NCBI GenBank assembly: GCA_021158465.1
Contig: JAGGUN010000006.1
Span: 6,631 to 70,630 of the forward strand
Direction of reading: 5' to 3'
Length of the DNA: 64,000 bases
Source of the DNA: a bacterium
GTDB taxonomy: Bacteria; UBP14; UBA6098; 4484-93
The translations under genes and the position numbers were made by a program. The notes under the pieces are model-generated. The model ran no database searches. It was given only the letters and a program-made list of their open reading frames with translations, and was not told the DNA's origin. The first letter of the stretch is position 1; each line of letters begins with the position of its first letter. Positions 28,865 to 46,591 of the stretch are shown here, piece after piece.

Positions 28865-29624
28865 ATCTTATTCCCAGCTTGAAGTTTCTCCCTAACGGGC
28901 AGCCTCTTGTGCATTTTAAGCAGCCATAACAGTTAACCGATCTTATCACATTTGCCCTGTAAAGGTCGATTTCGCCAGGGCATACACTCGCAAGTGTGCA
29001 ATTCTGTTCCAAGCAAGGTTTGTCGAAGCAGGTGGACCTGAGTGTGAATATCGAGAACAGCCCGAATACGCCCAATATCACACCGAACGGGCAGACAAAC
29101 TTGCAGAAGAACCGCTCGATTACAAGGGAACCTGCAACAAACAGAACAAGAAGAACAATAGACACCGTTCCAAGAAGCTTCGTGTGGTAGAAGAGAGGGC
29201 AGATGCTCTGGCAGCAGATAACACCAGACTTTATGCTAAGGAACGACACTGTAAGAAGAACCAGGAGAGGTGCAAAAAAATAAACATAGGAAAAATTCCC
29301 GGGGAGTCTACAGGAAATTCCCAGCTTTTTGCCTGCTGCAAAGAGTAGCCTCTCTACTGTTCCGATGGGGCATATCCAGCCGCAGAAGAACCGTGGTATG
29401 ACAAGCGAGGACAAAACGGCTGTTGCTCCTATTGTTACTCCCGTCGGGAAGAAGACCCCTGCCTCGAATCTGGTTGATATATTGATGAGCAGAAGGTTTA
29501 CCAGCGAGAACGGGCATATACTATGCACAGCGGCATACGGTTTCAGGAAAAACACCATAAGCAGAACGGTCACTCCAAGAAATATACCCTCGGTGATTCC
29601 TCTTATTGTTTGGATCTTCCTCAT
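28836..29624 (-). CDS. Membrane-bound polyferredoxin (NapH/MauN type 4Fe-4S protein)
   Basis: 262 residues, four to five membrane helices. Paired CxxxCP motifs at membrane borders (FFCGWICPIG and FFCKFVCPFG), then Cys-rich 4Fe-4S segments near the C-terminus (PCLEQNCTLASVCPG, CYGCLKCTRGCP). The family passes electrons across or along the membrane from quinols or ferredoxins to periplasmic acceptors. The partner here is unclear. It is coupled by overlap both to the preceding aminopeptidase (ATGA) and to the following regulator. Confidence 0.8.
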   Translation of the reverse strand: MRKIQTIRGITEGIFLGVTVLLMVFFLKPYAAVHSICPFSLVNLLLINISTRFEAGVFFPTGVTIGATAVLSSLVIPRFFCGWICPIGTVERLLFAAGKKLGISCRLPGNFSYVYFFAPLLVLLTVSFLSIKSGVICCQSICPLFYHTKLLGTVSIVLLVLFVAGSLVIERFFCKFVCPFGVILGVFGLFSIFTLRSTCFDKPCLEQNCTLASVCPGEIDLYRANVIRSVNCYGCLKCTRGCPLGRNFKLGIRYAKKDSGDR

Positions 29625-31555
29625 TTGAGGAAAAGGGCTTTCGATGTGACAAACTCATCGCCGCTTCTCGCTCTTATTAAGTAGACACCAGACGAAAGTT
29701 TTCTGGGACGCCAGATGGCTTCGCCGTCTGCGGTGAAACTGCAGACCCTATCACCTTTGATGTCGAATATCTCGACAGTTGCTTCCCTATTCGTCCAGAT
29801 GACAACTGACAGGTTGAACGGATTAGGGGAAACGGTCAGAGATAGTTCCTTTGGTGGTGAGGAGCTCGTATCTTTAATACCAACTCCAGCAAAGCGGTAT
29901 GTGCAAAGAGCGTGGTTGTGATAGTTGAAGTCGTTGACGACGGCTATCTCAGGAAAGTCATATTCAAAGCGGTTCCATCTTCTTGCTTCTATCATCACAG
30001 TGTCCACGACAAACTCTCCTCCCACCCGCAGTCTCATAACCAAGGGAACACGGAAAAGCGGAGCATCCTCCTGTACCTGCTCTACCTGTATAATGGTATG
30101 GTATGTTCCCGAATCCGTCGGGTATGAGTTCCAGTAATAGTCGAACTCTGGATACCCTGCCTCATAGATCCACTGATTGAAGAACCAGTCAAGCTCTTCG
30201 CCTGATCTCTCCTCTGCTATCCTCTGGAAATCGGATATTGTTGCATATGAATATCTAAAGCTATCGGCATAGTCAGAGAGGAGATCGAAGAAGGTATCGT
30301 CCCCAAGCAGGAAGCGCAGCATATCCAAAACCGCTCCCCCTTTTTCGTAGACAGTTACACCCCACATATAATCCGGGTCGTATATCGGGAAGCGCCCTTC
30401 TCTACTCTCTCCCTCGATGTACTGCGAGTGCATCCCACCGATGTATCCCCTTGCATCCTCCTCACCCCAGGCGTTCTCGACATAAAGAGCCTCGGAAAAT
30501 ACGGCGAACCCCTCGTTAATCCAGATGTCCTTCCAGCTACCACAGGTGACCATATCACCCCACCAGTGATGTGAAAGCTCATGTGCCACGACGGTTATGT
30601 AGCTCCTGTCACCTGTAACAAGATTATCCCCGAAGGTTGTTATGGTCTGATGCTCCATCGCACCCCAGCCCCACATAATCGGAGCTTCACACATACCATA
30701 CTTCTCGAACGGGTAACTACCGTAGAACCGGCTGTATATGTTTATTGCCTCCGTCACAGGATACCAGTCGTAGACAGCATTCTCCGAGTCATCAGGATAG
30801 TAATATAACCAAACAGGTAGCGTATCTGCTACCCAGAGTGTATCGAGCATGTAAGGGAATATCGAAACGGCGATAAGGTACGGTGCGATTGGGAAGCGTT
30901 CTCGCCAGTTGAATTTGACCATGTCGTCGAGCGTATCAACAGATGTAAGCTCTCCATTTGACGCCACAAGATACCCCTCGGGCACCGTCGCTGATAGAAA
31001 GAGAAGCGCTTTGTCCGAGGGGTCATCCTTACAGGGAAACCAGAACCGAGAATCCGATGGCTCGGTGAATGTGAAAAAGACATCATCGCCAAACTTGTTC
31101 GGTGCCCGATAATATCCAGCAGTTGGTGTCCCATGGTAGAAGATTGAGATAAGGTATAGTGGAAAGCTGGTGTCTGCTGGTTCAGGTAGGTTCACGGTTA
31201 GAAGGTTGCCCGAGCGTGTAAAACACTCTGTTCGGGTAGTATCAACGAGGAGCGAGTCGATAATAAGAGAACTTCCCATATCAAGCGTTATACTGTCTCC
31301 CTCGAGAAGGTGAACGAGTATCTGACAACTCCCTTTGATTCCTCTCGTTGGTATGAGGAACTCGAGGTCTATATTGTAGCATTCTACATCGTAGTTGCTC
31401 GAATCAGGAAAGGAGCTCGGTAGATCTTTCCCCATGCAGAGTCTGTGTCGCAGTTGGCTTGTTCTCACTGCTGCGTCAAATCCGTCCTGGTAATCGGCGA
31501 AGAGTGGTCCGAGAAAAAGCGTTGCCAGAAAGAGAAGAGAAAAGCAGCTTCTCAT
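29621..31555 (-). CDS. Secreted M1-family aminopeptidase with T9SS C-terminal domain
   Basis: 644 residues from ATG 31555; an upstream in-frame start at 31627 would add 24 residues before the signal peptide. Signal peptide about 1-20. M1 active site: GAMEH (298-302), zinc motif HELSH (325-329) and third ligand Glu348 in NEGF. The C-terminal 80 residues are a type A T9SS sorting domain (SPNPFNLSVVIW, VEIFDIKGDRV, GVYLIRA, SKALFLK). It is predicted to release N-terminal residues from peptides outside the cell, which fits the neighbouring TonB system and the secreted C25 protease as a peptide-scavenging set. Confidence 0.9.
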   Translation of the reverse strand: MRSCFSLLFLATLFLGPLFADYQDGFDAAVRTSQLRHRLCMGKDLPSSFPDSSNYDVECYNIDLEFLIPTRGIKGSCQILVHLLEGDSITLDMGSSLIIDSLLVDTTRTECFTRSGNLLTVNLPEPADTSFPLYLISIFYHGTPTAGYYRAPNKFGDDVFFTFTEPSDSRFWFPCKDDPSDKALLFLSATVPEGYLVASNGELTSVDTLDDMVKFNWRERFPIAPYLIAVSIFPYMLDTLWVADTLPVWLYYYPDDSENAVYDWYPVTEAINIYSRFYGSYPFEKYGMCEAPIMWGWGAMEHQTITTFGDNLVTGDRSYITVVAHELSHHWWGDMVTCGSWKDIWINEGFAVFSEALYVENAWGEEDARGYIGGMHSQYIEGESREGRFPIYDPDYMWGVTVYEKGGAVLDMLRFLLGDDTFFDLLSDYADSFRYSYATISDFQRIAEERSGEELDWFFNQWIYEAGYPEFDYYWNSYPTDSGTYHTIIQVEQVQEDAPLFRVPLVMRLRVGGEFVVDTVMIEARRWNRFEYDFPEIAVVNDFNYHNHALCTYRFAGVGIKDTSSSPPKELSLTVSPNPFNLSVVIWTNREATVEIFDIKGDRVCSFTADGEAIWRPRKLSSGVYLIRARSGDEFVTSKALFLK

Positions 31556-31577
31556 CTTTCCATCTGATAATAGAAGA

Positions 31578-31597
31578 AAGCGGCGAATGAGCCGCTT
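31578..31597 (-). other. Hairpin in tonB-aminopeptidase gap
   Basis: A 7-bp perfect stem (AAGCGGC / GCCGCTT) with a six-base loop lies in the 73-base gap between tonB and the aminopeptidase gene. On the minus strand it is followed by TCTTCTATT, too weak for a clear terminator. It may attenuate or process the message. Confidence 0.35.
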
Positions 31598-31628
31598 CCT
31601 GTCTTTGCAAAGATGTAGGAAAAACATT

Positions 31629-33797: not shown

Positions 33798-33829
33798 AAA
33801 AAAAAGCCACCCACAATATGTGAGTGGCT
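33798..33829 (-). terminator. Rho-independent terminator of the secreted-protein unit
   Basis: Minus strand stem AGCCACTCAC / GTGGGTGGCT (10 bp, one G-T pair) with a five-base loop, then eight T residues. It ends transcription of the 39394-33855 unit. Confidence 0.9.
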
Positions 33830-33854
33830 CTTACCTCCTTCCGGATGCAGTAAC

Positions 33855-34712
33855 TTATTTCAGGAGTATCATCCTCTTCTTTGCCTTGAAATCCCCAGCC
33901 TTGATGGTGTAAAAGTATACACCCGATGCAACAGGCTTCCCTTCACTGTCGGTTCCATCCCAGATGACTTCCTTGTAGCCTGCCTTTTCACGCCTATTGA
34001 CAAGCACCTTTACCCTCTCTCCGAGGATATTGGTTACCTCAAGCTTCACATCCGTATCCTTTGGCAGGGCATACCTTATGACCGTTGTTGGGTTGAACGG
34101 GTTCGGGTAGTTCTGTGAGAGCGAGAACTCCTTTGGCAGGTCGGTCTTCTCTTCTATCCCTGTGGCTATAAGGTTCACAATTATTGTAACATACGGCGGG
34201 AGTTCGTACAACACGGTATCGACACAGCAGGAATCACCGATAATAGCTGGGTTATCGTGTGCCCTGACCCAGGTGCAAACATGTAAGGTGTCGCCTGGCT
34301 CGGTTCCAGAGGTGTTGCGGATAGGAGTCCCGTTTCTGTAGAAGTTCCCAAGCGGGATATACACACAAACATAACCCTCTACATTCACCACATCGAACCC
34401 TTCCCCATACCAGGGGTTCATTGTGTCGGTGACAAACCAGGTGCCAGAGGAGTCATATGAGAGCCACGCCTCAAAATAGATACCCAGCTGATGACAGTCA
34501 TCGGGGGGATACCTTTCCTCACCAGGGGGTGGGTCGACACTCTCGGAGAATGGTGTGAGATAACCTCCCAGATGGTCATAGTAATAGAAGTGAATGGGCT
34601 CAACCCATCCGCTTGTTCCGCCAGGCGCGGCAGGTGCGGCAAAAGCTCCTACCGCCACGGAGATAAGCAGTGCCAGCGCAACCAATCCAATTCTCATCAT
34701 CTTAATCTTCAT
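33855..34712 (-). CDS. Secreted protein with T9SS C-terminal sorting domain, function unknown
   Basis: 285 residues: signal peptide (about 1-25), a roughly 175-residue beta-rich region with several Cys (CHQL, CVYIP, CTWVR, DSCCVDT) that I cannot assign, then a textbook type A sorting domain from NYPNPFNPTTVIRYALP to KKRMILLK. Being the last gene before a strong terminator, it belongs to the cluster of A/B/C secreted proteins upstream and is the only member with a clear T9SS tag. It may be a surface-exposed component or cap of whatever the cluster builds. Confidence 0.75.
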   Translation of the reverse strand: MKIKMMRIGLVALALLISVAVGAFAAPAAPGGTSGWVEPIHFYYYDHLGGYLTPFSESVDPPPGEERYPPDDCHQLGIYFEAWLSYDSSGTWFVTDTMNPWYGEGFDVVNVEGYVCVYIPLGNFYRNGTPIRNTSGTEPGDTLHVCTWVRAHDNPAIIGDSCCVDTVLYELPPYVTIIVNLIATGIEEKTDLPKEFSLSQNYPNPFNPTTVIRYALPKDTDVKLEVTNILGERVKVLVNRREKAGYKEVIWDGTDSEGKPVASGVYFYTIKAGDFKAKKRMILLK

Positions 34713-34736
34713 TTTTTCTCCCTCCCAATATTTGTT

Positions 34737-36149
34737 TTACCTTGTTGGCCAGAGTTCAACTGTTGTCCCCATCTTCACGAGGTATGGATATCCTGCCTCT
34801 ACATTCTCATGGTTTGTCCATTCATAGTGCGGTGTTGGGAACGGGATGAACAGCCATTCGGCAACGGTCACATACCCCTGAGAAAGGGCGTTCCATCTCA
34901 TAAGCGAGGGGGCTACATCACCCTCGGTTTCTGGGTCGTGTCCACCAGCAACTATGATATCCTGAAGTAGCTCAACCCCCGTTGTAATACCAGCGAGGTA
35001 GTGCTCGAAAAACGGGAGTGATATCCAGTTGTAGCTCGGCCTGTCGGTATGATGATACAGCTGCCAGTGTGGCTCGTTCCCCTCATGGTTCGGCAGATAG
35101 CATATCTTGTTAAAGGATAGCACTGTTTCGGGGAAATTCTGCCCGGAAAACATATATGGATATCCGACATGAACATAACCGGTACCTATCCACTCCCAAT
35201 GCGGAGTGGGAAACGGTACAAATGTTGATTCTGCAAGGGTAGTCCAGGTCTGTGTAGCTGCGTTGAACTCCATCACAAGATAGATTCCACCACCCAAAGC
35301 CTCACTCAATTTCTTCCCGAAGTTGACAGAACTGGTGTCCGTGCCAAGACCGAGTCCATCCACCACATAGGTAATCCAGTTGTAAGAGCTCCTGTCAGGG
35401 TAGTTGTCATAGACTTTGAAATCAAATTCACCTACACAATTGGATGGAGCATAGCTCTCGATGGTGTCCCCCGATACAATATCAACCTTGTAGGAGGTTA
35501 TCACATAGAACCAGTTAACGGCGGTATCGGCAATACCAGGTCCCAACGCTTCTGCCACCGGATCATCCAGATTGTCAGTGAAGTCCAGAGCACCGGAGAA
35601 TGCAGCAATCCTGTTACTTGGTGTACATTGCTCTATGCTGAATATCGGCACTGTGTCCCTGTAGACGAAGTATCCATCAGCCTCCATAACATAGCTGGAC
35701 ATCTTAAGTGCTATGTAGTCATCAGGCTCAAGCCTCGCATCGTTGATCCATATGTTCTCAGGAGGACGAGGACGCTCCGACGGTAGCATCGTGACATAGA
35801 TGTAAATGTCTTCCGAATAGTCCAGCGGAGAGAGTGTCTCTCTCGGAACCCTCCTCGGTGCTACCGACCTTGCAAGCCTCGCACTCCTCTCCTCCTTTCG
35901 AGGAGGGGTCCTCCTCTCATGTGGTAGACTTGTAGCTCTGGCACCCTCGGGTTTAAGCTCTGTAGCACCTCGAGTCTCTCCTGCTCCTTTGACAGGAACG
36001 AGTTGGTTCAACGCGGGTAACTCGTCTACCTTTTTCTCCTCCTCAAGGTTTAAAGAACCCTTGAGCGACTTTTCTTGGGCAAGTGCGGGCGAAACTGCCA
36101 AAAGAGTCACCAGCAGTAAAACCCAAACCCAGCCTAATCTTTTCATCAC
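34737..36149 (-). CDS. Secreted protein with two internal repeats (family C), function unknown
   Basis: 470 residues. Signal peptide about 1-24. Residues 60-105 form an Arg/Lys/Glu/Pro-rich, probably disordered segment (ERRTPPRKEERSARLARS). Two related repeats occupy about 254-336 and 371-460. Each begins with SYNWI, contains the hallmark PFPTPHWEW or PFPTPHYEW, and ends in GYPYMF or GYPYLV. No T9SS tag is present at the end (VELWPTR). AAGGAGGT precedes the ATG, 14 bases after family B3, so it is co-transcribed with it. I do not recognise the family. Confidence 0.7.
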   Translation of the reverse strand: MMKRLGWVWVLLLVTLLAVSPALAQEKSLKGSLNLEEEKKVDELPALNQLVPVKGAGETRGATELKPEGARATSLPHERRTPPRKEERSARLARSVAPRRVPRETLSPLDYSEDIYIYVTMLPSERPRPPENIWINDARLEPDDYIALKMSSYVMEADGYFVYRDTVPIFSIEQCTPSNRIAAFSGALDFTDNLDDPVAEALGPGIADTAVNWFYVITSYKVDIVSGDTIESYAPSNCVGEFDFKVYDNYPDRSSYNWITYVVDGLGLGTDTSSVNFGKKLSEALGGGIYLVMEFNAATQTWTTLAESTFVPFPTPHWEWIGTGYVHVGYPYMFSGQNFPETVLSFNKICYLPNHEGNEPHWQLYHHTDRPSYNWISLPFFEHYLAGITTGVELLQDIIVAGGHDPETEGDVAPSLMRWNALSQGYVTVAEWLFIPFPTPHYEWTNHENVEAGYPYLVKMGTTVELWPTR

Positions 36150-36163
36150 AACCTCCTTATCGG

Positions 36164-36946
36164 TTAAAAATCAACTACTATGCGAACGAACCTCCTCTTT
36201 TCCCCTGCTTCCACAAATAGAATCTTCTCATAACACCCTTTTCTCCTTTCCCGCTGAGGAAGACTTAATTTCCCCCTTACAAGCCTCCTCTCACCAGGGG
36301 AAAGGGGGTAAACATCCTCTTCCAGTTCCAGATTCCATCCATCTGGAAACAGCTGACATCCAGGAGTTCGTTTTACCTCCTGTGCATCCATAGGATAATC
36401 TACATCTAACTTATATATTATAGTGTCTTTGGTCGAATTTTCAAGTAGAAATTGAAAGATTCGTGCATTTTTCAGGATAACCTTGTTTGGGAGAGGAAGA
36501 AGCAATGAAGATTCGGTCTCGACAAAGAGCTTCACCACTCCCACAAGTTTGAACATTCTACTTGAATCTGAGACCTCAACAGCTATCCCCCCTAAGAAGC
36601 TTCTGTTGAAAAGCTGCTTCTCCTCTGGAATCTTGAGAGCAAAATTTATTTTCTCTTCACTTTCTCCCTTCAGGATGGTTGTCTTCTGCTTTACAATTAT
36701 CCAGGAGCTATCAGGGAGTGGTTCATAGTATCTTGTTCCTACGAGGGAGACAGGGTATGCTCGAATGTATGTATCATTTCTGGTAAGGTTTCGGACAATT
36801 ATGCCCTCCTTTGACCGGGTTTTTTTGCCCAAACGAACATCCTGAAGGATAATGACCGATGGGAAAAGCTCAACCTCAAAGCATATTATTTCCCTTGCAA
36901 AGAGGAGAAGCAGAAAAGCTATTGTCAAAGAACCGAGCTTTCTCAT
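36164..36946 (-). CDS. Two-domain Ig-like secreted protein B3 (chaperone-like), function unknown
   Basis: 260 residues from ATG 36946, after rejecting an upstream extension without signal peptide. Signal peptide about 1-20. Two beta-sandwich-like halves. It shares with B1 and B2 the motif LPDSSW and a following IPEE...FNR segment, at equal positions. The layout resembles fimbrial chaperones and DUF916/COG1470-type Ig proteins, but no family signature is strong enough for a firm name. It has its own promoter candidate just inside the gap after A3. Confidence 0.6.
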   Translation of the reverse strand: MRKLGSLTIAFLLLLFAREIICFEVELFPSVIILQDVRLGKKTRSKEGIIVRNLTRNDTYIRAYPVSLVGTRYYEPLPDSSWIIVKQKTTILKGESEEKINFALKIPEEKQLFNRSFLGGIAVEVSDSSRMFKLVGVVKLFVETESSLLLPLPNKVILKNARIFQFLLENSTKDTIIYKLDVDYPMDAQEVKRTPGCQLFPDGWNLELEEDVYPLSPGERRLVRGKLSLPQRERRKGCYEKILFVEAGEKRRFVRIVVDF

Positions 36947-36964
36947 CTCTCCGTTTCCAAAAAC

Positions 36965-36993
36965 AAGATATATGAGATCCAGGGATATGTCAA
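36965..36993 (-). promoter_or_regulatory. Promoter candidate for B3-C-cargo genes
   Basis: Minus strand TTGACA (36988-36993), 17-base spacer, TATCTT (36965-36970), immediately after the A3 stop. TTATAAAAAA lies upstream as an A/T-rich element. The leader is short (about 12 bases from the expected start site), which weakens the call. Confidence 0.45.
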
Positions 36994-36998
36994 GTTTT

Positions 36999-37670
36999 TT
37001 ATAACCAGACTGGAAGCGCAGTGATCTCAACCATAATGGTCTGTCTTATGTCCCAGGCGGTTGTTCTTGTTGGTGCATGGAACCTCAGCCAGATTTTTAC
37101 CTTGTTTGTCCCAGCAGTAGAGGATGAAGGGGGTCTTGCCATGAGGTGAAGACCAGTTGGTCTTATGCCAGGTACTGTGCTCCAGGATGGGTTGTAGTAT
37201 CTGTTGGAGGTTATCTCTGTATCCGTCATTGTTAGGAATGTCAGGACGCCTACCAGAAAATCATCATCTGTTGGTCTGGTGGAGGTTATATCGCCCACGA
37301 GTGCGTTAAGCACAAATATATCCTCATCTGCTTCATCGGAGAACTCGTTTGGCATCCAATGCAATGAAGGGTATACTACAAGGGCAAAGTCGAGGGTAAT
37401 TCCTCCTGTGTTCTCCAGTATTATCGCCTCTGAATCCGCCATAATGCAAACCGTGTCCGATGGTGTAACCCCTGTCCACTCGCCGGCAACCTCTCTTACA
37501 TACCCCGGATACCAGACGGTGTTCGATACGGAAAAGCTCGGTCCTTTCATCCTGGTAAAAACATACACCCTGCCCGATTCGGTGTACGAACTTTGGGAAA
37601 GAGCAACTCCCCAGGAAAGGGGAAGGATAACCAGCAACGCAAGCAAAACAAACTTTAGCCTCTTGTTCAT
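36999..37670 (-). CDS. Secreted beta-rich protein A3, function unknown
   Basis: 223 residues with a signal peptide (about 1-25). Shares with A1 and A2 the pattern SGRVYVF..M.G, a W.PG segment, the hallmark ENTGGITLDFAL, a following P..W segment, and a late hydrophobic strand (KVKIWLRFHAP). It is shorter and more divergent than A1/A2. Located three bases after B2 and before B3, so A and B families are interleaved and co-expressed. The hallmark 'NTGG' strand recalls the way TasA-like biofilm proteins and similar beta-sandwich subunits are built, but this is only a shape analogy. Confidence 0.6.
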   Translation of the reverse strand: MNKRLKFVLLALLVILPLSWGVALSQSSYTESGRVYVFTRMKGPSFSVSNTVWYPGYVREVAGEWTGVTPSDTVCIMADSEAIILENTGGITLDFALVVYPSLHWMPNEFSDEADEDIFVLNALVGDITSTRPTDDDFLVGVLTFLTMTDTEITSNRYYNPSWSTVPGIRPTGLHLMARPPSSSTAGTNKVKIWLRFHAPTRTTAWDIRQTIMVEITALPVWL

Positions 37671-37673
37671 AAC

Positions 37674-38465
37674 TTATTCTCTCTCCTTCATCACTGTGAT
37701 AAAACTTGAACTACTTCTGCTACTGATAACAAGATACCCTTTCTCCGCAGGGAGAAACTGATCTTCTATAACAAGGTAAAGTTCCTTTCTTTCTAGTTTC
37801 TCTAAAAATATATTATCGACAGGAATCTGCCAGAACATTATATTACTACAGACATATACTCCTTCCGGCATGGACGAGGTTTGGGGGTTGGAGATATCGG
37901 TAGTCCAAGAGAAATTTATCTTTACCGACTGCCTTGGGTCGTTGTTCATAACCACGAACCTCTTTTTCGTTTCACCGGGAGCAAACAGTATTTCTCCCGG
38001 GGAGCAGCAAAGCCTCTTTGGGCAGGACACTACCGTCTCGTTTGACGCCGTAGAGACAGTGACAATTGTACCAAAGCCGGCTGATACAGTTCCTCTTCCC
38101 CCTGTCCGTATCATAAAGCGATAATGCTGATTAAAGTATTCTTCCTCGGGTGGTATGGAAAGGTATATATTGATAGACCTGGTGGACTTTGCTGGCACTA
38201 CAAATGTTGTCTCGTCGAAGCTGACCCAGCTCTCATCCGGTATATAGTCGAAAAAGAAATCCCCTGGCGCCTTTTTTACCCTGAGAGAAAAACTGGCTGA
38301 GGTTGGATTCTTGTTGATGACAGAGAGAGGCGGTTCAAGCCGTATCCTATCGCCTGGATATACGCTATCCACCTCATAGCTCAAGGGAACCACTCCTATC
38401 TCGAAAGGAAATCCTCTCCCTGACATAACAAAAAATATAGAAACAAAGACGATTATTCTTTTCAT
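37674..38465 (-). CDS. Two-domain Ig-like secreted protein B2 (chaperone-like), function unknown
   Basis: 263 residues; signal peptide about 1-20, then PLSYEVDSVYPGDRIRL, the family motif IPDESWV and IPPEEEYFNQHYRF. Between the halves is a Cys-rich stretch (SCPKRLCCSPG) not seen in B3, followed by APGETKKRFVVMNND, typical of an Ig-like strand pair. Overlaps B1 by four bases (ATGA) and is followed three bases later by A3. Function unknown; a periplasmic chaperone or assembly factor for the A proteins is the working guess. Confidence 0.6.
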   Translation of the reverse strand: MKRIIVFVSIFFVMSGRGFPFEIGVVPLSYEVDSVYPGDRIRLEPPLSVINKNPTSASFSLRVKKAPGDFFFDYIPDESWVSFDETTFVVPAKSTRSINIYLSIPPEEEYFNQHYRFMIRTGGRGTVSAGFGTIVTVSTASNETVVSCPKRLCCSPGEILFAPGETKKRFVVMNNDPRQSVKINFSWTTDISNPQTSSMPEGVYVCSNIMFWQIPVDNIFLEKLERKELYLVIEDQFLPAEKGYLVISSRSSSSFITVMKERE

Positions 38466-39394
38466 TCTTCCGGGGTAATGATCACTCGAACGAATCTTCT
38501 CAAGCGTGCCTCCCCTTTTGGAACGAGGAACAGAAGAACCTCCCAGTTGTTGCTCAGTAGCTCCTTATTATCAGGTAGGCGAACCTTTACAGGATAGGAG
38601 ACTGATTCCCCGGGAGCGAGTGTAATCTTGGGCGGTTTCTTGAATATCAAAAGGAATCTTCTCTTCTTTGGGACCACCCAGGAAGCGTCCTCTGGATAGA
38701 AGTTTCTTGGTTCTGATGGTTCGATCCTGAAACTGTATGATAATGTGTCGGCTGGTGGAGGGACGAAGCTAACAAGCGTAAACTCCCTCGGGATGGTATC
38801 GTTATTGAATATGGTAATCTCCTTTTCAACTTCCCCGCCGAGCTTGCAGGTTGTGTATAGCTTGCTCGGTGCCACAGCGATGATGCCAGCCGGCGGAACC
38901 TCGGGTTCTGGCTTCGGTGCAGTCTCGATTATATAGTATGACGAGACAGCAAGCCTTATGCCCATCCCTGTTCCTTTCAGAGCCGTCTCTTTCCCGAACC
39001 CACCAGGATACGCCTTTGCAGTTACCTTGAATATCCATGCCTGATTGTAGTACTTCTCACTGTCAGGGATGCTTATGATCATATTGAGTTTCCCAGTATC
39101 CTGCGGCATAACGGTTATTGTGTCCAGAGGGAGCTTTATCCATTCGGAGTCGGGCAAAGGCAAAAACCCCTTATATACAGATCTTGGGCATGATATCTCA
39201 AGCTTATACCCAAGAACACTCGCCTTATCGCCGAGGAGGTTTATCGAGATGCCTGCGTCGGCTTCCAGATTGTAGCTCGTGCCAGGTGTTATACCGCCTA
39301 TATCGATTATCAGAGGCTCCATACCGATCCCCAGCGAGAAAAGGCTCCGAGTAAGCACCCCCAGAAAAAATAGAATAGAGACAACTTTCCTCAT
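38462..39394 (-). CDS. Two-domain Ig-like secreted protein B1 (chaperone-like), function unknown
   Basis: 310 residues; signal peptide about 1-20, first Ig-like half with LPLPDSEWIKLP and IPDSEKYYNQAW, a Pro-rich linker (PKPEPEVPPAG, about 165), and a second half with KEITIFNNDTIPREFTL and LAPGESVSYPVKV. It ends in RRFVRVIITPEE, similar to RRFVRIVVDF of B3. The start has a GGGGGG ribosome binding site. First gene of the B1-B2-A3 block, with a promoter candidate upstream. Confidence 0.6.
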   Translation of the reverse strand: MRKVVSILFFLGVLTRSLFSLGIGMEPLIIDIGGITPGTSYNLEADAGISINLLGDKASVLGYKLEISCPRSVYKGFLPLPDSEWIKLPLDTITVMPQDTGKLNMIISIPDSEKYYNQAWIFKVTAKAYPGGFGKETALKGTGMGIRLAVSSYYIIETAPKPEPEVPPAGIIAVAPSKLYTTCKLGGEVEKEITIFNNDTIPREFTLVSFVPPPADTLSYSFRIEPSEPRNFYPEDASWVVPKKRRFLLIFKKPPKITLAPGESVSYPVKVRLPDNKELLSNNWEVLLFLVPKGEARLRRFVRVIITPEE

Positions 39395-39451
39395 TATATA
39401 TCCCCCCTTTTTCCCATGTCTCTCCGAGGATAGCTTTATACTTTCCTTTAA

Positions 39452-39480
39452 ATGGTAAAACGCTTCTCCTTAAAAGTCAA
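39452..39480 (-). promoter_or_regulatory. Promoter candidate for B1-B2-A3 block
   Basis: Minus strand TTGACT (39475-39480), 17-base spacer, TACCAT (39452-39457). The spacer contains AAGGAGAAG, also seen in the A2 promoter (TAGGAGAAA). Confidence 0.45.
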
Positions 39481-39511
39481 GGGATTTTTCAATTTTCTCA
39501 CGCCTTGTCCA

Positions 39512-40360
39512 TCATGGTGTTAACCTTGTGTCGGTATCCCAGATTTCTGCACCGAACCACAGGTGGAATCTGTGTGGTGTGAAGTCGGTTGAAGATGCTG
39601 GAGTAAGCATCAAAAGCCAGAGTAAGACCTCATCATCGTCACTGGGATCCCCGGAGCCGTTACGGTCACGATTGGTCTCTGCTACAAGCTTCAGCCCCTC
39701 GGTGTCGGCGTTCCAGTAGCCGTCGGTGCTGACCTTCGGATAATAGTAAGTAGTAGTTGCCTCTTTATAGTCTCCTGCAAGCTCTGTCTCAGGGACATTG
39801 TCGTTGGAGGACCCTGCCATTGAGCCGCTTATTTCATCATACTCGATGCCAAACTCCTCGCTTGTTGGCATCCCACCGAAATCCTCTGTAACATCGGTGA
39901 AGATACCCGCAAAGAGGATTTCATCCTCCCAAGGGGCATTTCCCGCAGTGGAAGTCAAGGGAACCCAGTCCATCTCGTCCGGTATGTGTTCATCCCAGGT
40001 TGAGGGGTCCTCTAACCAGAATCCGAAATCCATTGTAACGCCACCGGTGTTCTCAATCCTGAACTTGTTGTCGCTCTGCGTACCTGAACGGGAAGCTAAA
40101 TTCTTGGTATAATAAAAACTGCTGGGGGAGACTATTATATCCCCACTCTCGTCCAGATCTCCAGGCATCCAGGCTGTGTGGTCGATCTCCCAGCGGATGC
40201 CGATCATCTTGGCATACACGACGATGCGCCCGCTCTCGTTGGTTCCATAGCCAAGCCCTTCCCCATAGTACCTATCTCGCCACCCATGCTCTGCCCAAAC
40301 GGCTGAGGTGAGGAAGAAAATCAGTGCTGTAAATAGTAATCTCTTCATCTTTATGTCCAT
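39512..40360 (-). CDS. Secreted beta-rich protein A2, function unknown
   Basis: 282 residues from ATG 40360 (alternative ATG at 40348). The longer open frame up to 40513 is rejected because it reads through a terminator. Signal peptide ends near AVWAEHGW. Strongly similar to A1 over its whole length: GLGYGTNESGRIVV, IRWEIDHTAWMPGD, IENTGGVTMDF, WNAD.EGLKLVAE, and the end HLWFGAEIWDTD. Acidic, Gly/Ser-rich segments with DRNGSGDPSDDDE suggest calcium binding. Own promoter and preceding terminator make it an independent transcript. Confidence 0.7.
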   Translation of the reverse strand: MDIKMKRLLFTALIFFLTSAVWAEHGWRDRYYGEGLGYGTNESGRIVVYAKMIGIRWEIDHTAWMPGDLDESGDIIVSPSSFYYTKNLASRSGTQSDNKFRIENTGGVTMDFGFWLEDPSTWDEHIPDEMDWVPLTSTAGNAPWEDEILFAGIFTDVTEDFGGMPTSEEFGIEYDEISGSMAGSSNDNVPETELAGDYKEATTTYYYPKVSTDGYWNADTEGLKLVAETNRDRNGSGDPSDDDEVLLWLLMLTPASSTDFTPHRFHLWFGAEIWDTDTRLTP

Positions 40361-40403
40361 TGTAGTTATCTTCTTTAACCTATCATTCCTTAATTGCCTT
40401 TTA

Positions 40404-40432
40404 ATAATAGGACCATTTCTCCTAGAAGTCAA
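40404..40432 (-). promoter_or_regulatory. Strong promoter candidate for A2
   Basis: Minus strand TTGACT (40427-40432), 17-base spacer, TATTAT (40404-40409): five of six matches in both boxes. The leader to the start codon is about 40 bases. Confidence 0.7.
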
Positions 40433-40464
40433 GATTTTTTGTAGGCTGAGGGAGATGCCCCTGC

Positions 40465-40494
40465 AAAAAAGCCCCCCTTTTGAAGGGGGGCTTT
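40465..40494 (-). terminator. Rho-independent terminator after A1
   Basis: Minus strand 12-bp perfect stem (AAAGCCCCCCTT / AAGGGGGGCTTT) with a three-base loop, running into a six-T tract. It separates A1 from A2. Confidence 0.92.
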
Positions 40495-40522
40495 CCTCAC
40501 ATAGGTAACCCATTTGTAAGGC

Positions 40523-41383
40523 TTACGGCGCGAGAAGATCTGAATCCCAGATCTCGGCAGAAAGCCACAGATGGAATGTGTGCAGATTGAAGTCACCTGC
40601 ACTAACAGGTGTTAGCATCATTAGCCAGAGATAAGCCTCATCCTCATCGTCAATGTTACCGTTGCCTGTCTTGTCCTCGTTGTATTCCGCTACGAGCTTC
40701 AACCCCTCGTCATCGGCATTCCAATACGCATTGGCAGCAGTCACAGGGGTGTATGTTCCGCCGGTAGCCGTGACATTTGCCTCGCAGTTTGCAACAGAAT
40801 CACGAACCACATTTTCTCCATCGGCTGAGGCGTCCCAGTGACCGTCAGTTTCGTTATAGATGATATCATACTCATCGGAGAACGGGTAGCCATCTCCATA
40901 ACTTGTAGTTGTGTCGGTGAAGATTGCAGCAAAGAGAACCGTGTCCTGGTTAGGGATATAGTTTGCAACCGCTACAAGAGAGGAAGTGTAGGGCATCCAG
41001 TCTCTTGCATCAGGTGTGTGCTCATCCCAGACCGAAGGGTCCTCAAAGTATAAAGCCATATCGATGGTAGCACCGCCCGTGTTCTCAATATGGAACTTCA
41101 ACTCGTCCGTCTCGCTACTTACACCCTTTGTGTAGTAGAACTCTCTCGGCATAACGACCTGCACGCTATCACCCTCTGTCACTTCGACCGTATCGCCGGG
41201 TGCCCAGGATGTGTGGTCGATCTCCCAACGGATACCCATCATCTTGGCGAATACAACGATACGACCGCTCTCGTTGGTGCCATATCCGAGCCCGTCACCA
41301 TAATAGCCATTGCGCCAGCCGTTGTCTGCCCAAACAGCTGTCGCAAGGAGAAGAACTAACGCTACAAACAATAGCTTCTTCAT
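40523..41383 (-). CDS. Secreted beta-rich protein A1, function unknown, predicted highly expressed
   Basis: 286 residues; signal peptide to about AVWADNGW. Same family as A2 and A3: GLGYGTNESGRIVVF, IRWEIDHTSWAPGD, IENTGGATIDMAL, then WNADDEGLKLVAE, an acidic GNIDDEDEAY segment and a C-terminal HLWLSAEIWDSD. The start has AAGGAGGA seven bases upstream, close to a perfect ribosome binding site. Two tandem consensus promoters and a dedicated terminator surround it. All this suggests an abundant extracellular or surface structural protein. No enzymatic motif is visible and I do not recognise the family. Confidence 0.7.
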   Translation of the reverse strand: MKKLLFVALVLLLATAVWADNGWRNGYYGDGLGYGTNESGRIVVFAKMMGIRWEIDHTSWAPGDTVEVTEGDSVQVVMPREFYYTKGVSSETDELKFHIENTGGATIDMALYFEDPSVWDEHTPDARDWMPYTSSLVAVANYIPNQDTVLFAAIFTDTTTSYGDGYPFSDEYDIIYNETDGHWDASADGENVVRDSVANCEANVTATGGTYTPVTAANAYWNADDEGLKLVAEYNEDKTGNGNIDDEDEAYLWLMMLTPVSAGDFNLHTFHLWLSAEIWDSDLLAP

Positions 41384-41441: not shown

Positions 41442-41469
41442 ATCTTAAAGTAATTTTCCCTCTTGTCAA
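41442..41469 (-). promoter_or_regulatory. A1 proximal promoter candidate
   Basis: Minus strand TTGACA (41464-41469), 16-base spacer, TAAGAT (41442-41447), with an A/T-rich block (AAAAATAAACGAAAAAATTT) upstream that looks like an UP element. Confidence 0.55.
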
Positions 41470-41578: not shown

Positions 41579-43366
41579 CTATTTCCATCTTCTATCTTTT
41601 TTCATCTGTTCGATCGCTTTCAGGATATTATCTTTGTCCGATGCTCCCGGTTTCAGTTCGAGATACTTTTCAAAGAACCTCTCGGCGGGTTCCCTCATAC
41701 CCATCTGGTAGTAGCATATTCCGAGTTCTTTTGCCACTTTTGAGTTATCGGGATATTCTTGATAAAGTTTAGTGAGTATATCGATAGCTTCTTTTTCCCT
41801 GCTCGTATTGAATAGCAGGTTTGCCAGTTCTATCCTTGCCACCACGAGTTCTTTGCTATTTTCTTCCTTTGCCGATGCAATTCTCAGGAACCTTTCGGCG
41901 TTTTTTATGTCCCCGGTTTTTCTGTAGCACACGCCTATGCTGTAGCTATTGTAGTAGGCGATTTCCTCGGGGGGGAGCAGCTCTTCGAGCTTGTTTGCGT
42001 ATTTTATCACCGAGTCGCATTCTTCTATTCCTGCATATGCGGCGACGAGGTTGCCAAGCAGATTCTCATCTGTCGTATCGATATCGTATGCGGTATAGAG
42101 CGGTGGAATAGCCTCCTTAAATTTGCCGTATGCGATGTAGGCGTTCCCCAGCTGGATGCTTATGAGATAGTCCCCTGGTATCTTTTTGTTTGCGTCTTCC
42201 CACACCGTTACCGCAGTTTGCCAGACATCGTTTCGTTGCACTGTCAGTATGGAATAGGAGGCGATGAGTGAGCCTGTCAGTATATAAACAGCTGATGGCT
42301 TTTTTATAAGTTTTGCGAGCCATCCGATAAGATAGGCGATGCACACCGCATAGCCAACGGATGAGACGAGTGCGTATCTGTCTGCTTTTTGTATGGCGAT
42401 TTTAACAAACCCCATAGTCGGCAGCAGGTTGACATAGAACCATAATATAAAAAAGGAAACAATCTTATTCTTTTTATAGAAATATATTATAAGATAGACC
42501 ATCACAGCAAGCAGGATGAATGCGAGGATGATTTTCCCTGCTGGAAGGCTGACCATCCTGGTTTCCTGATATCTTGCCACAAGCCTGACAGGGAGGAACA
42601 TCTTGCCGATGTAGAATGCGAGGTTATAAACGATGATGAACGGGTGAAGCCCCTGGTAGCTCAGATTTCCCTTGAGAAAGGTGGTTCCGGCGAAGAAGAG
42701 GAAATATATCACCCCTGGGAATGTTATAATCCAGTAAGGGATGTGGGCGAGAAATATTCTTCGTTCCCTCTTGAAATAGAGCCAGTAGAACAGAAGCACA
42801 AGAGGGAGTGTTACTGCCTGGGGTTTCGACAGGACGGAGATGATATATGAGCCGTATGAGGCGATAAGAAACCATCTGTTTCCCTTCTCCACCCAGAGGA
42901 TGAAAAGATACAGCGATAGGAGGAAGAATGTCCCGAATAGCACCTCTTTTCTTGCGGCGAGGTATGTAACGGATTCCACATGAAGCGGATGGACGGCAAA
43001 TACTGCTGTTGCAAGGAGGGCGGGCTTCTCGGAATGCAGTATCCTGAAGAGGCACTTATACAGGAGGAAGATGATTACGAGGTACAGCAGCAGGTTATGC
43101 AGATGCAGACCGAATAGAAGATATCTTGCTCCGAATATGGTATGGTCGATAGAGTATGAGAAGTCTCGGATTGGCTGGTATGTCGAGCCAACCCTTATGC
43201 TGAATATCTTTGCAATTCTCTCTGCCGATAGCACTCCGACCTTGGAACTCTTCAGGATAAGATTGATGTCATCCCAGTTGGTGTAGTCGTTATCGAATGT
43301 GTTGATGTAGAGTGCCGCTGTTATACAGAGGATAAGAACGAGCCAGATGCCTTTACGGTTTTTCAG
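41579..43366 (-). CDS. Multi-spanning membrane protein with TPR tail (TMTC/PMT-like), second copy
   Basis: Roughly 595 residues: about ten or more membrane helices, then tetratricopeptide-type helices from about residue 400. The motifs NDYTNWDD, STYQPIRDFSY and HPLHVESVTYLAARKEV are shared with the next gene upstream and match membrane O-glycosyltransferase-like TPR proteins (TMTC/PMT type), so transfer of a lipid-linked sugar to secreted proteins is plausible but unproven. The start is problematic. The only ATG/GTG/TTG start keeping helix 1 is GTG 43477, overlapping the previous gene by 125 bases; CTG at 43366 aligns with the paralogue's start and gives the same length. Confidence 0.7.
   Translation of the reverse strand: MKNRKGIWLVLILCITAALYINTFDNDYTNWDDINLILKSSKVGVLSAERIAKIFSIRVGSTYQPIRDFSYSIDHTIFGARYLLFGLHLHNLLLYLVIIFLLYKCLFRILHSEKPALLATAVFAVHPLHVESVTYLAARKEVLFGTFFLLSLYLFILWVEKGNRWFLIASYGSYIISVLSKPQAVTLPLVLLFYWLYFKRERRIFLAHIPYWIITFPGVIYFLFFAGTTFLKGNLSYQGLHPFIIVYNLAFYIGKMFLPVRLVARYQETRMVSLPAGKIILAFILLAVMVYLIIYFYKKNKIVSFFILWFYVNLLPTMGFVKIAIQKADRYALVSSVGYAVCIAYLIGWLAKLIKKPSAVYILTGSLIASYSILTVQRNDVWQTAVTVWEDANKKIPGDYLISIQLGNAYIAYGKFKEAIPPLYTAYDIDTTDENLLGNLVAAYAGIEECDSVIKYANKLEELLPPEEIAYYNSYSIGVCYRKTGDIKNAERFLRIASAKEENSKELVVARIELANLLFNTSREKEAIDILTKLYQEYPDNSKVAKELGICYYQMGMREPAERFFEKYLELKPGASDKDNILKAIEQMKKDRRWK
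42941..42994. repeat. 54-base perfect repeat shared by the two TMTC-like genes (copy 1)
   Basis: Identical at every base to 44721-44774, while the flanks differ. It encodes the HPLHVESVTYLAARKEV region. Confidence 0.9.
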
Positions 43367-45140
43367 TTTCCCCTGCCTCGAGTTTTTGGACTGCCTTTCG
43401 TATCTTCTCCGCGTCGGATGCTCTCGGATAAAGGTTGAGGTACCTCTTGAGGTATTCCAGAGCCTTCTGTTTATCACCTGACTTGTAGTAGAGTGTTTCG
43501 AGGTTTCGCAGTGCTAATGTGTGTTTTGGGTCTATTTTGATGGCTCTTGTAAGCATCTTTTCAGAGAGTTCTGGTCTCCCTGTTCTGAAATACAGCACCC
43601 CGAGGTCGGACAGTGCGAGAAGGTCTCTTGGGTTGTGTTCAAGTGCCTTTTTCAGCCAGTATTCTCCCTTTTCGAATTTTCCCATCATAAGGAATGATGA
43701 GCCCATATCCCTCATAGCAGAGGGATGCAGTTTCTCGGGACCTGTTATCGCAAGCGCTTCCTCGAAGTATCTGACCGCCTTGTCGTACTGCTTTGTCCTT
43801 GAGTAAGCCTGCCCGATGTTGTAGAGTATCTTTGGCTCGCGTGGGTTTATCTTGTATGCCCAAAGCAGGGGGGGAAGAGCCTCCTTATATTCGTGATATT
43901 CGTTCCTTGCCCTACCGACGCCCCAGCAGACTATATAATTCTTAGGGTATTTCTTATAAGCATCCTCCCAGATGGTTTTTGTGTTCCGCCAGACAAAGTT
44001 TCTCTGAACGGTGAGGGATGAATAGAAGATCAGGAACGGTAGGGCGATGAGTATCGCAACCCTTTCACATCTTTTTTTCCTTATCCTCTTTGCTATGTAG
44101 AATATACCCATAGACAGAAGGGCTGCATAGGAGAGTGACGAGATAAAAACATATCTGTCAGCCCTTTGAATAGCGATTCTCAGAAGACCTGATGTCGGGA
44201 TGAGGTTCACCAGGAACCAGGCAATGAAGAAAGATACCTTCTTCTGTTTTTTGTAGAGGAGTATGATTAGTGCAACTAAGAGCGAGACTACGGCGACCCC
44301 GATCAGCTTGTCAAAAAGGCTCATCGTTCTTATGAAATAATCGGGGTACCTTATGCACATCTTTACGGGTGCGATGAGCATTGCGATGTAATTGGTAACC
44401 TGCCTTGTGATGATGAGCGGATGTATCCCAGGGTAGAATGAGCCCTCCTTTGGAGTTATGGTTCTTGAGAAGAAGATGAAGTATCCGAGGATGACAAGCA
44501 TCATCCCCCAGAAGGGGAGCTCGCTTGTGAAGCGGTTCTTTTTCTTCTTTGAGAAGTATGTGTCCCACATAAGGAGACATAGAGGTAAGCTCACAGCAGA
44601 TGGCTTGGATAGGAGGGCTATGACAAATGAGATAAAGGATAGAATAAGGTTTTTTCCTTTTTTCTCCTTGTCAGCTGTGATGTACAGGTAAAATGATAGA
44701 AAGAAGAAGAAGTTGACCAACACCTCTTTTCTTGCGGCGAGGTATGTAACGGATTCCACATGAAGCGGATGGACAGCGAATATCGCTGTTGCGAGGAATG
44801 CGACATCCTCTTTCATGAACCTCTTCAACAGGAAATAGACCACGATGAGAGTTAGAAGATAGAAGATGAGATTAGTCAGATGGTAGCCTATGGGGTTTAG
44901 GTGCCAGATGGCATAGTCTATAGCATATGAGAACTCACGGATCGGCTGGTATGTGCTTCCCGCACTGGGTAGGAATATCTTTTTGAGGTTGTCGAGTGCC
45001 AGTGACCTGATTCTCGTGTTCTTGACGATGAGGTTGTTGTCGTCCCAGTTGGTGAACTCGTTCCAGAAGGAGTTGAGATATAAGAGGACTACCAGAAGGA
45101 GGATAATTCCAAGTTTCAGCGTGTCGCTTGCAAGGTTCAT
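43353..45140 (-). CDS. Multi-spanning membrane protein with TPR tail (TMTC/PMT-like), first copy
   Basis: 595 residues from ATG 45140, which overlaps the glgA stop by one base (TGATG); the longer frame to 45227 is rejected. Helix 1 is followed by NEFTNWDDNNLI with the conserved Asp pair, STYQPIREFSYAID, HPLHVESVTYLAARKEV, further helices to about residue 400, then four or five TPR units (PREPKILYNIGQAYSRTKQ, PRDLLALSDLGVLYFRTGR). Probably a membrane glycosyltransferase acting on secreted proteins, inferred from TMTC/PMT similarity. Its paralogue follows. Confidence 0.75.
   Translation of the reverse strand: MNLASDTLKLGIILLLVVLLYLNSFWNEFTNWDDNNLIVKNTRIRSLALDNLKKIFLPSAGSTYQPIREFSYAIDYAIWHLNPIGYHLTNLIFYLLTLIVVYFLLKRFMKEDVAFLATAIFAVHPLHVESVTYLAARKEVLVNFFFFLSFYLYITADKEKKGKNLILSFISFVIALLSKPSAVSLPLCLLMWDTYFSKKKKNRFTSELPFWGMMLVILGYFIFFSRTITPKEGSFYPGIHPLIITRQVTNYIAMLIAPVKMCIRYPDYFIRTMSLFDKLIGVAVVSLLVALIILLYKKQKKVSFFIAWFLVNLIPTSGLLRIAIQRADRYVFISSLSYAALLSMGIFYIAKRIRKKRCERVAILIALPFLIFYSSLTVQRNFVWRNTKTIWEDAYKKYPKNYIVCWGVGRARNEYHEYKEALPPLLWAYKINPREPKILYNIGQAYSRTKQYDKAVRYFEEALAITGPEKLHPSAMRDMGSSFLMMGKFEKGEYWLKKALEHNPRDLLALSDLGVLYFRTGRPELSEKMLTRAIKIDPKHTLALRNLETLYYKSGDKQKALEYLKRYLNLYPRASDAEKIRKAVQKLEAGETEKP
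44721..44774. repeat. 54-base perfect repeat shared by the two TMTC-like genes (copy 2)
   Basis: Identical to 42941-42994, in the same orientation relative to the genes. Confidence 0.9.
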
Positions 45141-46591
45141 CAGCTGGTGTAAAGCATGATGTATCTTTTTGCTGATTTGTGCCAGGAGAAGTCTTTTTTC
45201 ATTCCTCTTATCATAATCTTTCGCCAAGTCGGGTAATCTTCAAAGACTGTTAGGGCTCGGTTTATTGCCTTCAGAAGGGCTTTGGGATCGTATTCCTCGA
45301 ACAGGAACCCTGTTCCTGACTTGGGGTTCTCTGTAAAATCTACTATCGTATCCTTGAGTCCTCCCGTTTTCCTTGCTACAGGCACTGTTCCGTAATGCAT
45401 GGCGAACATCTGAGTCAGTCCGCAGGGCTCGTATCTCGAGGGTATGAGCAGTATGTCGCTTCCTGCGAATATCCTGTGCGAGAGTTTTATGTCAAAACGG
45501 ATGTTCGCTGACACCTTTTTGGGGAATGAAAGAGCCATCTTCTCGAAGAACTCCTCATAGTCAGGCTCACCCGTTCCGAGGAGTGTGAATGTTACATCGC
45601 GCATCATAAGCTGTGGAAATATCTCCTTTAGTATGTCTATTCCCTTCTGTGGAGCGAGGCGGGTTATTATCCCGAGCATCGGGAGGTCAAGCGTCTCTTT
45701 TGGTAAGCCGAGTTCCTTTATAAGCTCTAACTTATTCATCCGCTTTCCTGATAGGTCATCGCTTGTGTAAGAGAACGGGAGGTTCGGATTATTCTCTGTT
45801 GTCCAGATGGTTTGATCGATGCCGTTTAGTATTCCAGATAGTTTATGCGAATATTTTGAGAGTAGTCCCTCGAGTCCGTATCCGTATTCTGGTGTTTTTA
45901 TCTCCTCGGCGTATGTCGGTGATACTGTTGTTATCCTGTCGGCATACTCTATACCGAGCTTCATAAAGTTCACCTTGCCGTAGAACTCGAACGGAGACAT
46001 AGGGTAGAACCTGTCTTTGCCAACCCCGATGAACGAAAGTATGGAGGGGTCATATTTCCCCTGATAGCCGATGTTGTGGATGCTGAATATTGTCCTGGTA
46101 TCGGGGAGTATCGCTTGTTCTTTTATATACATAGGAACAAGAGCGGTCTGATAATCGTTGCAATGGATAACATCGGGAGAGAGCGACAGGGCTTTTATGG
46201 TTTCGATTATCCCCTTGGCAAAGAATGTCCATCTTTCGCCGTCATCGGGATATGCTTTACCGGTTTTTGGATCAGTGTAAACGCCTTCGCGGGAGAAATA
46301 GTTACCATTCTCTATGAAATAAATACTAACGCCTGTTTTATCCTTGCAAGAGAAAAGTCTCATCCGTTCTGTTCTCCCAGCCATATCGATGGGTATCGGT
46401 TTTACATCTTTTACAGGCTTTATCCCGAAGCGGTCGATGTCTATTGTTCTATACAGGGGAAGGAAGAGCGTTACCTTATGTCCCATTTTAGAGAACTCTT
46501 TTGGAAGTGCCCCCATAACATCCCCCAGACCGCCGACCTTTATGTATGGATAAGCCTCTGCTGAGCTGATGGCTATGGAAAGCGGCTTCAT
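45140..46591 (-). CDS. glgA: Glycogen (starch) synthase, ADP/UDP-glucose type
   Basis: 483 residues, GT5 family. Adds glucose from a nucleotide sugar to an alpha-1,4-glucan. The N-terminal KVGGLGDV substrate-binding motif (about 17-24) is present, followed by the second Rossmann domain with GIITRLAPQKGID, PSRYEPCGLTQMFAM and the KTGGLKDTIVD loop. Overlaps hypB by four bases, an unexpected union of carbon storage and hydrogenase maturation genes. No other glg gene is in the window. Confidence 0.93.
   Translation of the reverse strand: MKPLSIAISSAEAYPYIKVGGLGDVMGALPKEFSKMGHKVTLFLPLYRTIDIDRFGIKPVKDVKPIPIDMAGRTERMRLFSCKDKTGVSIYFIENGNYFSREGVYTDPKTGKAYPDDGERWTFFAKGIIETIKALSLSPDVIHCNDYQTALVPMYIKEQAILPDTRTIFSIHNIGYQGKYDPSILSFIGVGKDRFYPMSPFEFYGKVNFMKLGIEYADRITTVSPTYAEEIKTPEYGYGLEGLLSKYSHKLSGILNGIDQTIWTTENNPNLPFSYTSDDLSGKRMNKLELIKELGLPKETLDLPMLGIITRLAPQKGIDILKEIFPQLMMRDVTFTLLGTGEPDYEEFFEKMALSFPKKVSANIRFDIKLSHRIFAGSDILLIPSRYEPCGLTQMFAMHYGTVPVARKTGGLKDTIVDFTENPKSGTGFLFEEYDPKALLKAINRALTVFEDYPTWRKIMIRGMKKDFSWHKSAKRYIMLYTS

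Follow-up and report, generated by a model that had tools for sequence, protein, structure and literature searches.

We analysed a 64,000-nucleotide stretch of contig JAGGUN010000006.1 (assembly GCA_021158465.1), hereafter the window, in which eight genes for exported proteins lie together on the minus strand between positions 33,855 and 41,383. Three encode members of one beta-rich family (A1, A2, and A3) and three encode members of a family with two immunoglobulin (Ig)-like domains (B1, B2, and B3). The remaining two encode a repeat protein, C, and a protein tagged for the type IX secretion system (T9SS). The pairing of A with B is well supported by genomics, and the window probably encodes an undescribed means of holding or assembling surface proteins in little-known diderm bacteria.

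A preliminary description of the locus had recognized the A and B proteins as two paralogous families encoded on one strand, and this was borne out. All eight reading frames are open at the positions given there (Table 1). A1 and A2 are 57% identical, whereas A3 is about 30% identical to either and has the motifs ESGR.YV, ENTGG.T.D, and GL.L.A in common with them; searched against its own genome, A1 retrieved A2 (E = 2e-92) and A3 (E = 1.9e-6) and no other match. The B proteins are likewise related (BLASTP E-values of 2e-14 for B1–B2 and 1e-8 for both B1–B3 and B2–B3), with the motifs PDxSW and IP..E.YYNQ common to all three. A hydrophobic, signal-like N-terminal segment is present in all eight proteins, and a later transmembrane helix or lipobox in none (0/8). 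The net charge of A1 is about -36. The genes are tightly packed or overlapping, with a 4 bp overlap between B1 and B2 and a 3 bp gap between A3 and B2; the start of A2 was taken as the ATG at 40360, since the longer mechanical frame (to 40513) crosses a hairpin. The one same-genus genome compared (locus L007) has the eight genes in identical order. Profile searches of Pfam and NCBIfam returned nothing above cut-off for A1–A3 or B1–B3, and thus no sign of the membership in known, unrelated families that the preliminary description had named beforehand as speaking against its reading. Weak Pfam matches (VapB, KOW2_Spt5, FixG_C, and a Tc toxin repeat) fell below cut-off and were read as chance or as the generic Ig fold.

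Table 1. Genes and putative transcription signals in and around the A/B cluster (window positions).
Feature	Position	Strand	Basis
A1, stand-alone A-domain protein, strongly acidic	40523-41383	minus	Open reading frame; signal-like N-terminus; no Pfam/NCBIfam match
A2, stand-alone A-domain protein	39512-40360	minus	Open reading frame; sequence identity to A1
B1, exported two-domain Ig-like partner	38462-39394	minus	AlphaFold2 model and structural matches
B2, Ig-like partner	37674-38465	minus	Homology; tree lineage in common with B of G002:C160 and G005:C83
A3, stand-alone A-domain protein	36999-37670	minus	Homology; partner in trees is B2
B3, Ig-like partner	36164-36946	minus	Homology; clusters with B2
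C, exported; contains an imperfect repeat in two copies (SYNWI...FPTPH.EW...GYPY)	34737-36149	minus	No family match; kept in same-genus genome
Exported T9SS-tagged protein; C-terminal domain of T9SS type A / FlgD_ig-like type	33855-34712	minus	PF13860, 5.4e-9; TIGR04183, 1e-8, above cut-off
Promoter-like site TTGACA-16-TAAGAT before A1	41442-41469	minus	Consensus match only
Terminator-like hairpin with T run between A1 and A2	40472-40489	minus	Stem kept in same-genus genome
Promoter-like site TTGACT-17-TATTAT before A2	40404-40432	minus	Consensus match only; both hexamers kept in same-genus genome
Terminator-like hairpin, 14 pairs and T tail, 3' of T9SS-tagged gene	33802-33832	minus	Sequence scan
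Membrane protein with tetratricopeptide repeats (TPR) and a glycosyltransferase C/protein mannosyltransferase (GT-C/PMT)-type part (TMTC-like)	41579-43477	minus	Recurs beside A/B in G005:C153 and G005:C135
Second TPR and PMT_2 (TMTC-like) membrane protein	43353-45227	minus	PF13231, 3.2e-10, and TPRs

Linkage and co-inheritance of A and B

We used profiles built solely from A1–A3 and from B1–B3 for an unbiased search of the class. B was found in all 17 genomes, mostly in multiple copies, and A in eight. Outside the genus, five of the eight A matches lay within 1 kb of a B, against 0.044 expected, and two of the three unlinked matches were on a short contig or close to a contig end. The co-occurrence anticipated by the preliminary description is thus conserved in relatives. 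With deeper profiles, a domain-wide search of 386 genomes detected the A family in 31 of them and the B family in 36. Outside the class, 11 genomes from eight families contained both, three contained A only, eight B only, and 347 neither (Fisher test, 7e-14; 8e-8 after dropping the five genomes that trained the A profile), and in all 11 genomes with both families A and B share one contig (gene maps are available for ten). With the same profiles, 52 stand-alone A genes were counted outside the genus, of which 33, in 20 genomes, lay within 1 kb of a B. These results are to be read with the non-independence of the genomes and the partial training of the deeper A profile on loci fetched through their B. 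A scan of genome contigs with B yielded eight loci only, and no A domain was found in viral contigs.

Trees of 22 adjacent A/B pairs indicate that the two families were inherited as pairs, since they split in parallel and follow the type of locus rather than the genome, although some of the deeper forks are weakly supported. Short A proteins of about 180 residues, drawn from five genomes, fall into a single clade (99/99), as do their B partners (91/85), and four of these five genomes also hold a long-type pair. The same groupings recur in both trees: G002 with G005a, G005b with G005c, G014 with G016, and A3/B2 of the window with G002/G005a. The window therefore holds two pair lineages, which accounts for its interleaved gene order, and the cluster is better seen as two adjoining modules, A1-A2-B1 and B2-A3-B3. 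The equal number of A and B genes, which had seemed suggestive of a one-to-one ratio, does not hold as a rule: the arrangements found were A-B, A-B-A, large-A-A-B, and B without A.

The A domain is a beta-rich unit of about 150 residues that occurs either alone, as in A1–A3, or at the very C-terminal end of large exported proteins. The A core ends one to five residues from the C-terminus in 29/29 distinct large proteins examined, i.e., nine of at least 390 residues, some of them cut by the locus, and 21 further matches, with one shared between the two sets. These A-tailed proteins range from 390 to about 3,820 residues, the longest open frames being 3,600–3,830 residues, and some carry papain-like (L051), clostripain-like (L072), or beta-helix (L183) parts ahead of the tail. 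One lies in the window's own genome (G000:C23; L193, 4122-15587), where a frame of about 3,821–3,826 residues ends in an A-type domain and contains no Pfam domains. None is encoded within the window cluster. At several loci (G000:C31, G005:C105, and G010:C84) the genes for a large protein, two small A proteins, and a B follow one another in that order; the A-tailed giants are mostly remote from B (8/61 within 3 kb), and B would therefore need to act on them in trans.

Predicted fold of B and comparison with known systems

The AlphaFold2 model of B1, built from 13 sequences, has a predicted local distance difference test score (pLDDT) of 74 and a predicted template modeling score of 0.71. Its best structural match is the Enterococcus faecium WxLIP 9i1y_A (Z = 12.3; root-mean-square deviation, rmsd, 2.9 Å over 120 residues; model residues 21–162), and a WxLIP bound to a long WxL protein (9i25) scores Z = 11.3. 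Domain 1 also matches the PapD-like chaperones FimC, Caf1M, EcpB, CsuC, and CfaA (Z = 10–11; rmsd 2.4–3.5 Å for the first four), which together with eukaryotic ASH/MSP domains form a broad band at Z = 10–12; domain 2 matches chiefly other ASH/PapD-like chains. As modeled, domain 1 of B thus belongs to the PapD/ASH/MSP/WxLIP fold group. A low-confidence loop at residues 131–147 of B1, flanked by strands 119–130 and 148–158, appears to sit at the place of the interactive F1-G1 hairpin of PapD-type chaperones. In sequence searches of the Protein Data Bank (PDB), the sole match of the B profile was HYDIN (E = 0.06), and the A profiles gave scattered weak matches (lectins best, E = 0.0045; also PapE, MHC, and a chemokine) that were taken as chance; no family in Pfam, NCBIfam, or the PDB was matched by A. 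Foldseek matches of the A1 model all had E > 0.2 and were not used.

The closest known parallel in plan is the WxL/WxLIP system of Lactobacillales and Bacillales. Its clusters encode a small WxL protein, a large protein that ends in a WxL domain, and a WxLIP with two Ig domains, and AlphaFold2 predicts that a WxLIP hairpin inserts into WxL (PMC10599100). The A/B loci have the same parts, namely a small stand-alone domain, large C-terminally tagged proteins, and one two-Ig partner per cluster, and the three loci with a large protein follow the same cluster plan; the modeled fold of B1 domain 1 is also nearest to WxLIP. In contrast, the A/B hosts are diderm. Pfam WxL matched none of 18 A members at E 0.1, nor A1–A3 of the window at E 1, and two W-x-L motifs were found in 0/24 members. 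WxLIP_PGBD (DUF916) matched three of 24 B members at E 0.1 (best 3.4e-6), WxLIP_HBD (DUF3324) was absent among the matches listed, and none of the 24 has the C-terminal transmembrane helix that is a feature of WxLIP.

Chaperone-usher systems likewise combine an exported, PapD-like two-Ig partner with subunits that occur alone and as the C-terminal domain of a larger protein. The A/B genes may accordingly be read as an usher-less or divergent-usher pilus, with B as periplasmic chaperone, stand-alone A proteins as pilins joined by donor-strand exchange, and A-tailed proteins as tip adhesins. We consider this unlikely, albeit with a serious claim to attention. The chaperone matches of B1 and the placement of its low-confidence loop favor such a pilus, the hairpin 3' of A1 would suit an abundant major subunit, and FimH provides the plan of an adhesin that carries a pilin domain at its C-terminus. 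However, the PF00577 usher was found in none of 37 genomes (the window's own and 36 others; the E. coli control was positive), PapD_N was detected by sequence in 0/24 B members at E 0.1, and A-tailed proteins of 2,000–3,800 residues dispersed far from B are unlike pilus tips. By the tests made, A/B falls outside both the WxL/WxLIP and chaperone-usher systems while being similar to them in plan, and no published account of such a system outside the known clades was found in the literature searched. The analogy to Ig-like chaperones and anchors drawn in the preliminary description is supported by the predicted fold of B1. The absence of an usher that it reported extends to all genomes searched, whereas that of any enzyme is valid only inside the cluster, because the cluster is immediately preceded by two glycosyltransferase genes of the TPR/PMT type.

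A further reading is that A directs secretion as a new type of C-terminal signal, read by T9SS or some other machinery, with B as its escort or receptor. Like the T9SS sorting domains Por_Secre_tail and CHU_C, A is beta-rich and ends surface proteins at their extreme C-terminus, and the two kinds of domain often share genomes. SprA was found in 16 of the 17 class genomes, the window's own included, and T9SS-tagged proteins lie within or next to A/B loci. We nevertheless judge this reading quite improbable. A also occurs as a domain alone, paired with B, which would be superfluous for a mere signal, and SprA was unmatched in three A+B genomes that are >90% complete (G186, G188, and G324) and in G005, a genome 89% complete that has three A/B loci. 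Moreover, no A member matched TIGR04183/PF18962 (Por_Secre_tail), CHU_C, or FlgD_ig; within the cluster, only the T9SS-tagged protein did. That A and B are independent secreted adhesins or matrix proteins, neighbors by coincidence, is very improbable given linkage well beyond chance and trees that are parallel by locus type, even though all are exported and beta-rich and Ig-like domains are widespread.

Transcription signals, neighboring genes, and related loci

The terminator-like hairpin after A1, with a promoter-like site beyond it, suggests that A1 has its own, abundant transcript, with A2 through the T9SS-tagged gene forming an operon; A1 is probably made in excess. The loop of this hairpin reads TTCAAAA in the window and TTTTGAA, its reverse complement, in L007 (about 9020-9042), with the same stem. 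The L007 copy of A1 (9073-9912) lacks a start and signal peptide, although the promoter region upstream is similar; this may reflect a deletion, or the A1/A2 repeat may have been collapsed when the metagenome-assembled genome was put together. A single operon with the downstream ExbB/ExbD/TonB genes was set aside, and those genes are probably transcribed separately, because the strong hairpin 3' of the T9SS-tagged gene intervenes. Just beyond them, positions 29621-31627 encode an M1-family peptidase that weakly matches Por_Secre_tail.

The two upstream genes resemble TMTC O-mannosyltransferases in combining a GT-C/PMT membrane part with TPRs. Animal TMTCs, the human ones included, belong to a pathway that O-mannosylates cadherins, and look-alikes occur in prokaryotes (PMC7801869). 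Linkage to A/B is seen in two bacterial families only: six of nine TMTC-like matches in G005 lie on two A/B contigs (recurring at L053 and L054), and in the window's own genome the figure is two of four. The product of the gene nearest A1 is a possible glycosylation partner of A/B, and we treat this link as a lead only, because it is limited to two families and involves tandem copies.

Other arrangements of B were also observed. In L168 and L169 (G077 and G348), a distant B-like gene lies beside genes for a protein of about 940 residues, an exported protein of about 180 residues (duplicated in L169), and a protein of about 460 residues; the arrangement resembles a further fimbria-like operon whose large partner is unrecognized. 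In L077, L084, and L087, several B genes adjoin a gene for a 1,270-residue protein, and the L087 copy carries a VWA domain and a T9SS CHU_C tail.

A proposed surface retention pair

The reading we prefer, although we regard it as evenly balanced, is that A and B work together as a pair that retains or assembles proteins at the surface of diderm bacteria. It draws on the two families, their linkage and parallel inheritance, the C-terminal position of A, and the predicted fold of B; from these we infer direct A–B binding, strand donation, and a surface location. In this proposal, B, as an exported PapD/WxLIP-like two-Ig protein, would bind A domains, probably through an added edge strand (the B1 hairpin at about residues 119–158) that would complete the A domain. 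B would thereby keep A proteins folded and retained at the envelope, where stand-alone A proteins may form a base or coat with A-tailed giants and hydrolases displayed on top. The window would then represent two ancestral A/B modules joined, together with C and the T9SS-tagged protein. The fiber or S-layer envisaged in the preliminary description is unsupported, and the strictly C-terminal position of A on large proteins favors fiber building no more than it does retention or anchoring.

Several findings weigh against the proposal. The lead of WxLIP over the chaperones is about 1 Z unit and concerns one domain, and many eukaryotic ASH/MSP domains score close behind; being near-equal in score, they leave function unsettled by the fold. 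Single-chain prediction, as the preliminary description had suggested, was informative for B1 but not for A1, which was modeled poorly (AlphaFold2, 10 sequences, pLDDT 49). B has neither a C-terminal membrane helix nor a lipobox to anchor it at the surface. B also occurs without a neighboring A, only 32 of 85 B matches having an A within 3 kb; B may therefore have further partners.

A more specific version of the retention proposal, which we hold tentatively and think rather doubtful, is an as yet undescribed diderm display system that has neither usher nor sortase, in which B would complete, and hold at the surface, the strictly C-terminal A domain of proteins up to about 3,800 residues long, and the TMTC-like neighbors would glycosylate beta-sandwich proteins in some lineages, including that of the window. 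The retention of large proteins on the surfaces of diderms beyond Proteobacteria has so far been mostly unexplained. With a conserved C-terminal domain that has an Ig-like partner of its own, many of the 'hypothetical' giants of uncultured phyla would gain a name and a testable mechanism. If true, this would suggest that a broader strand-sharing strategy has as its branches both the WxL/WxLIP plan of Firmicutes and that of the pilus chaperones.

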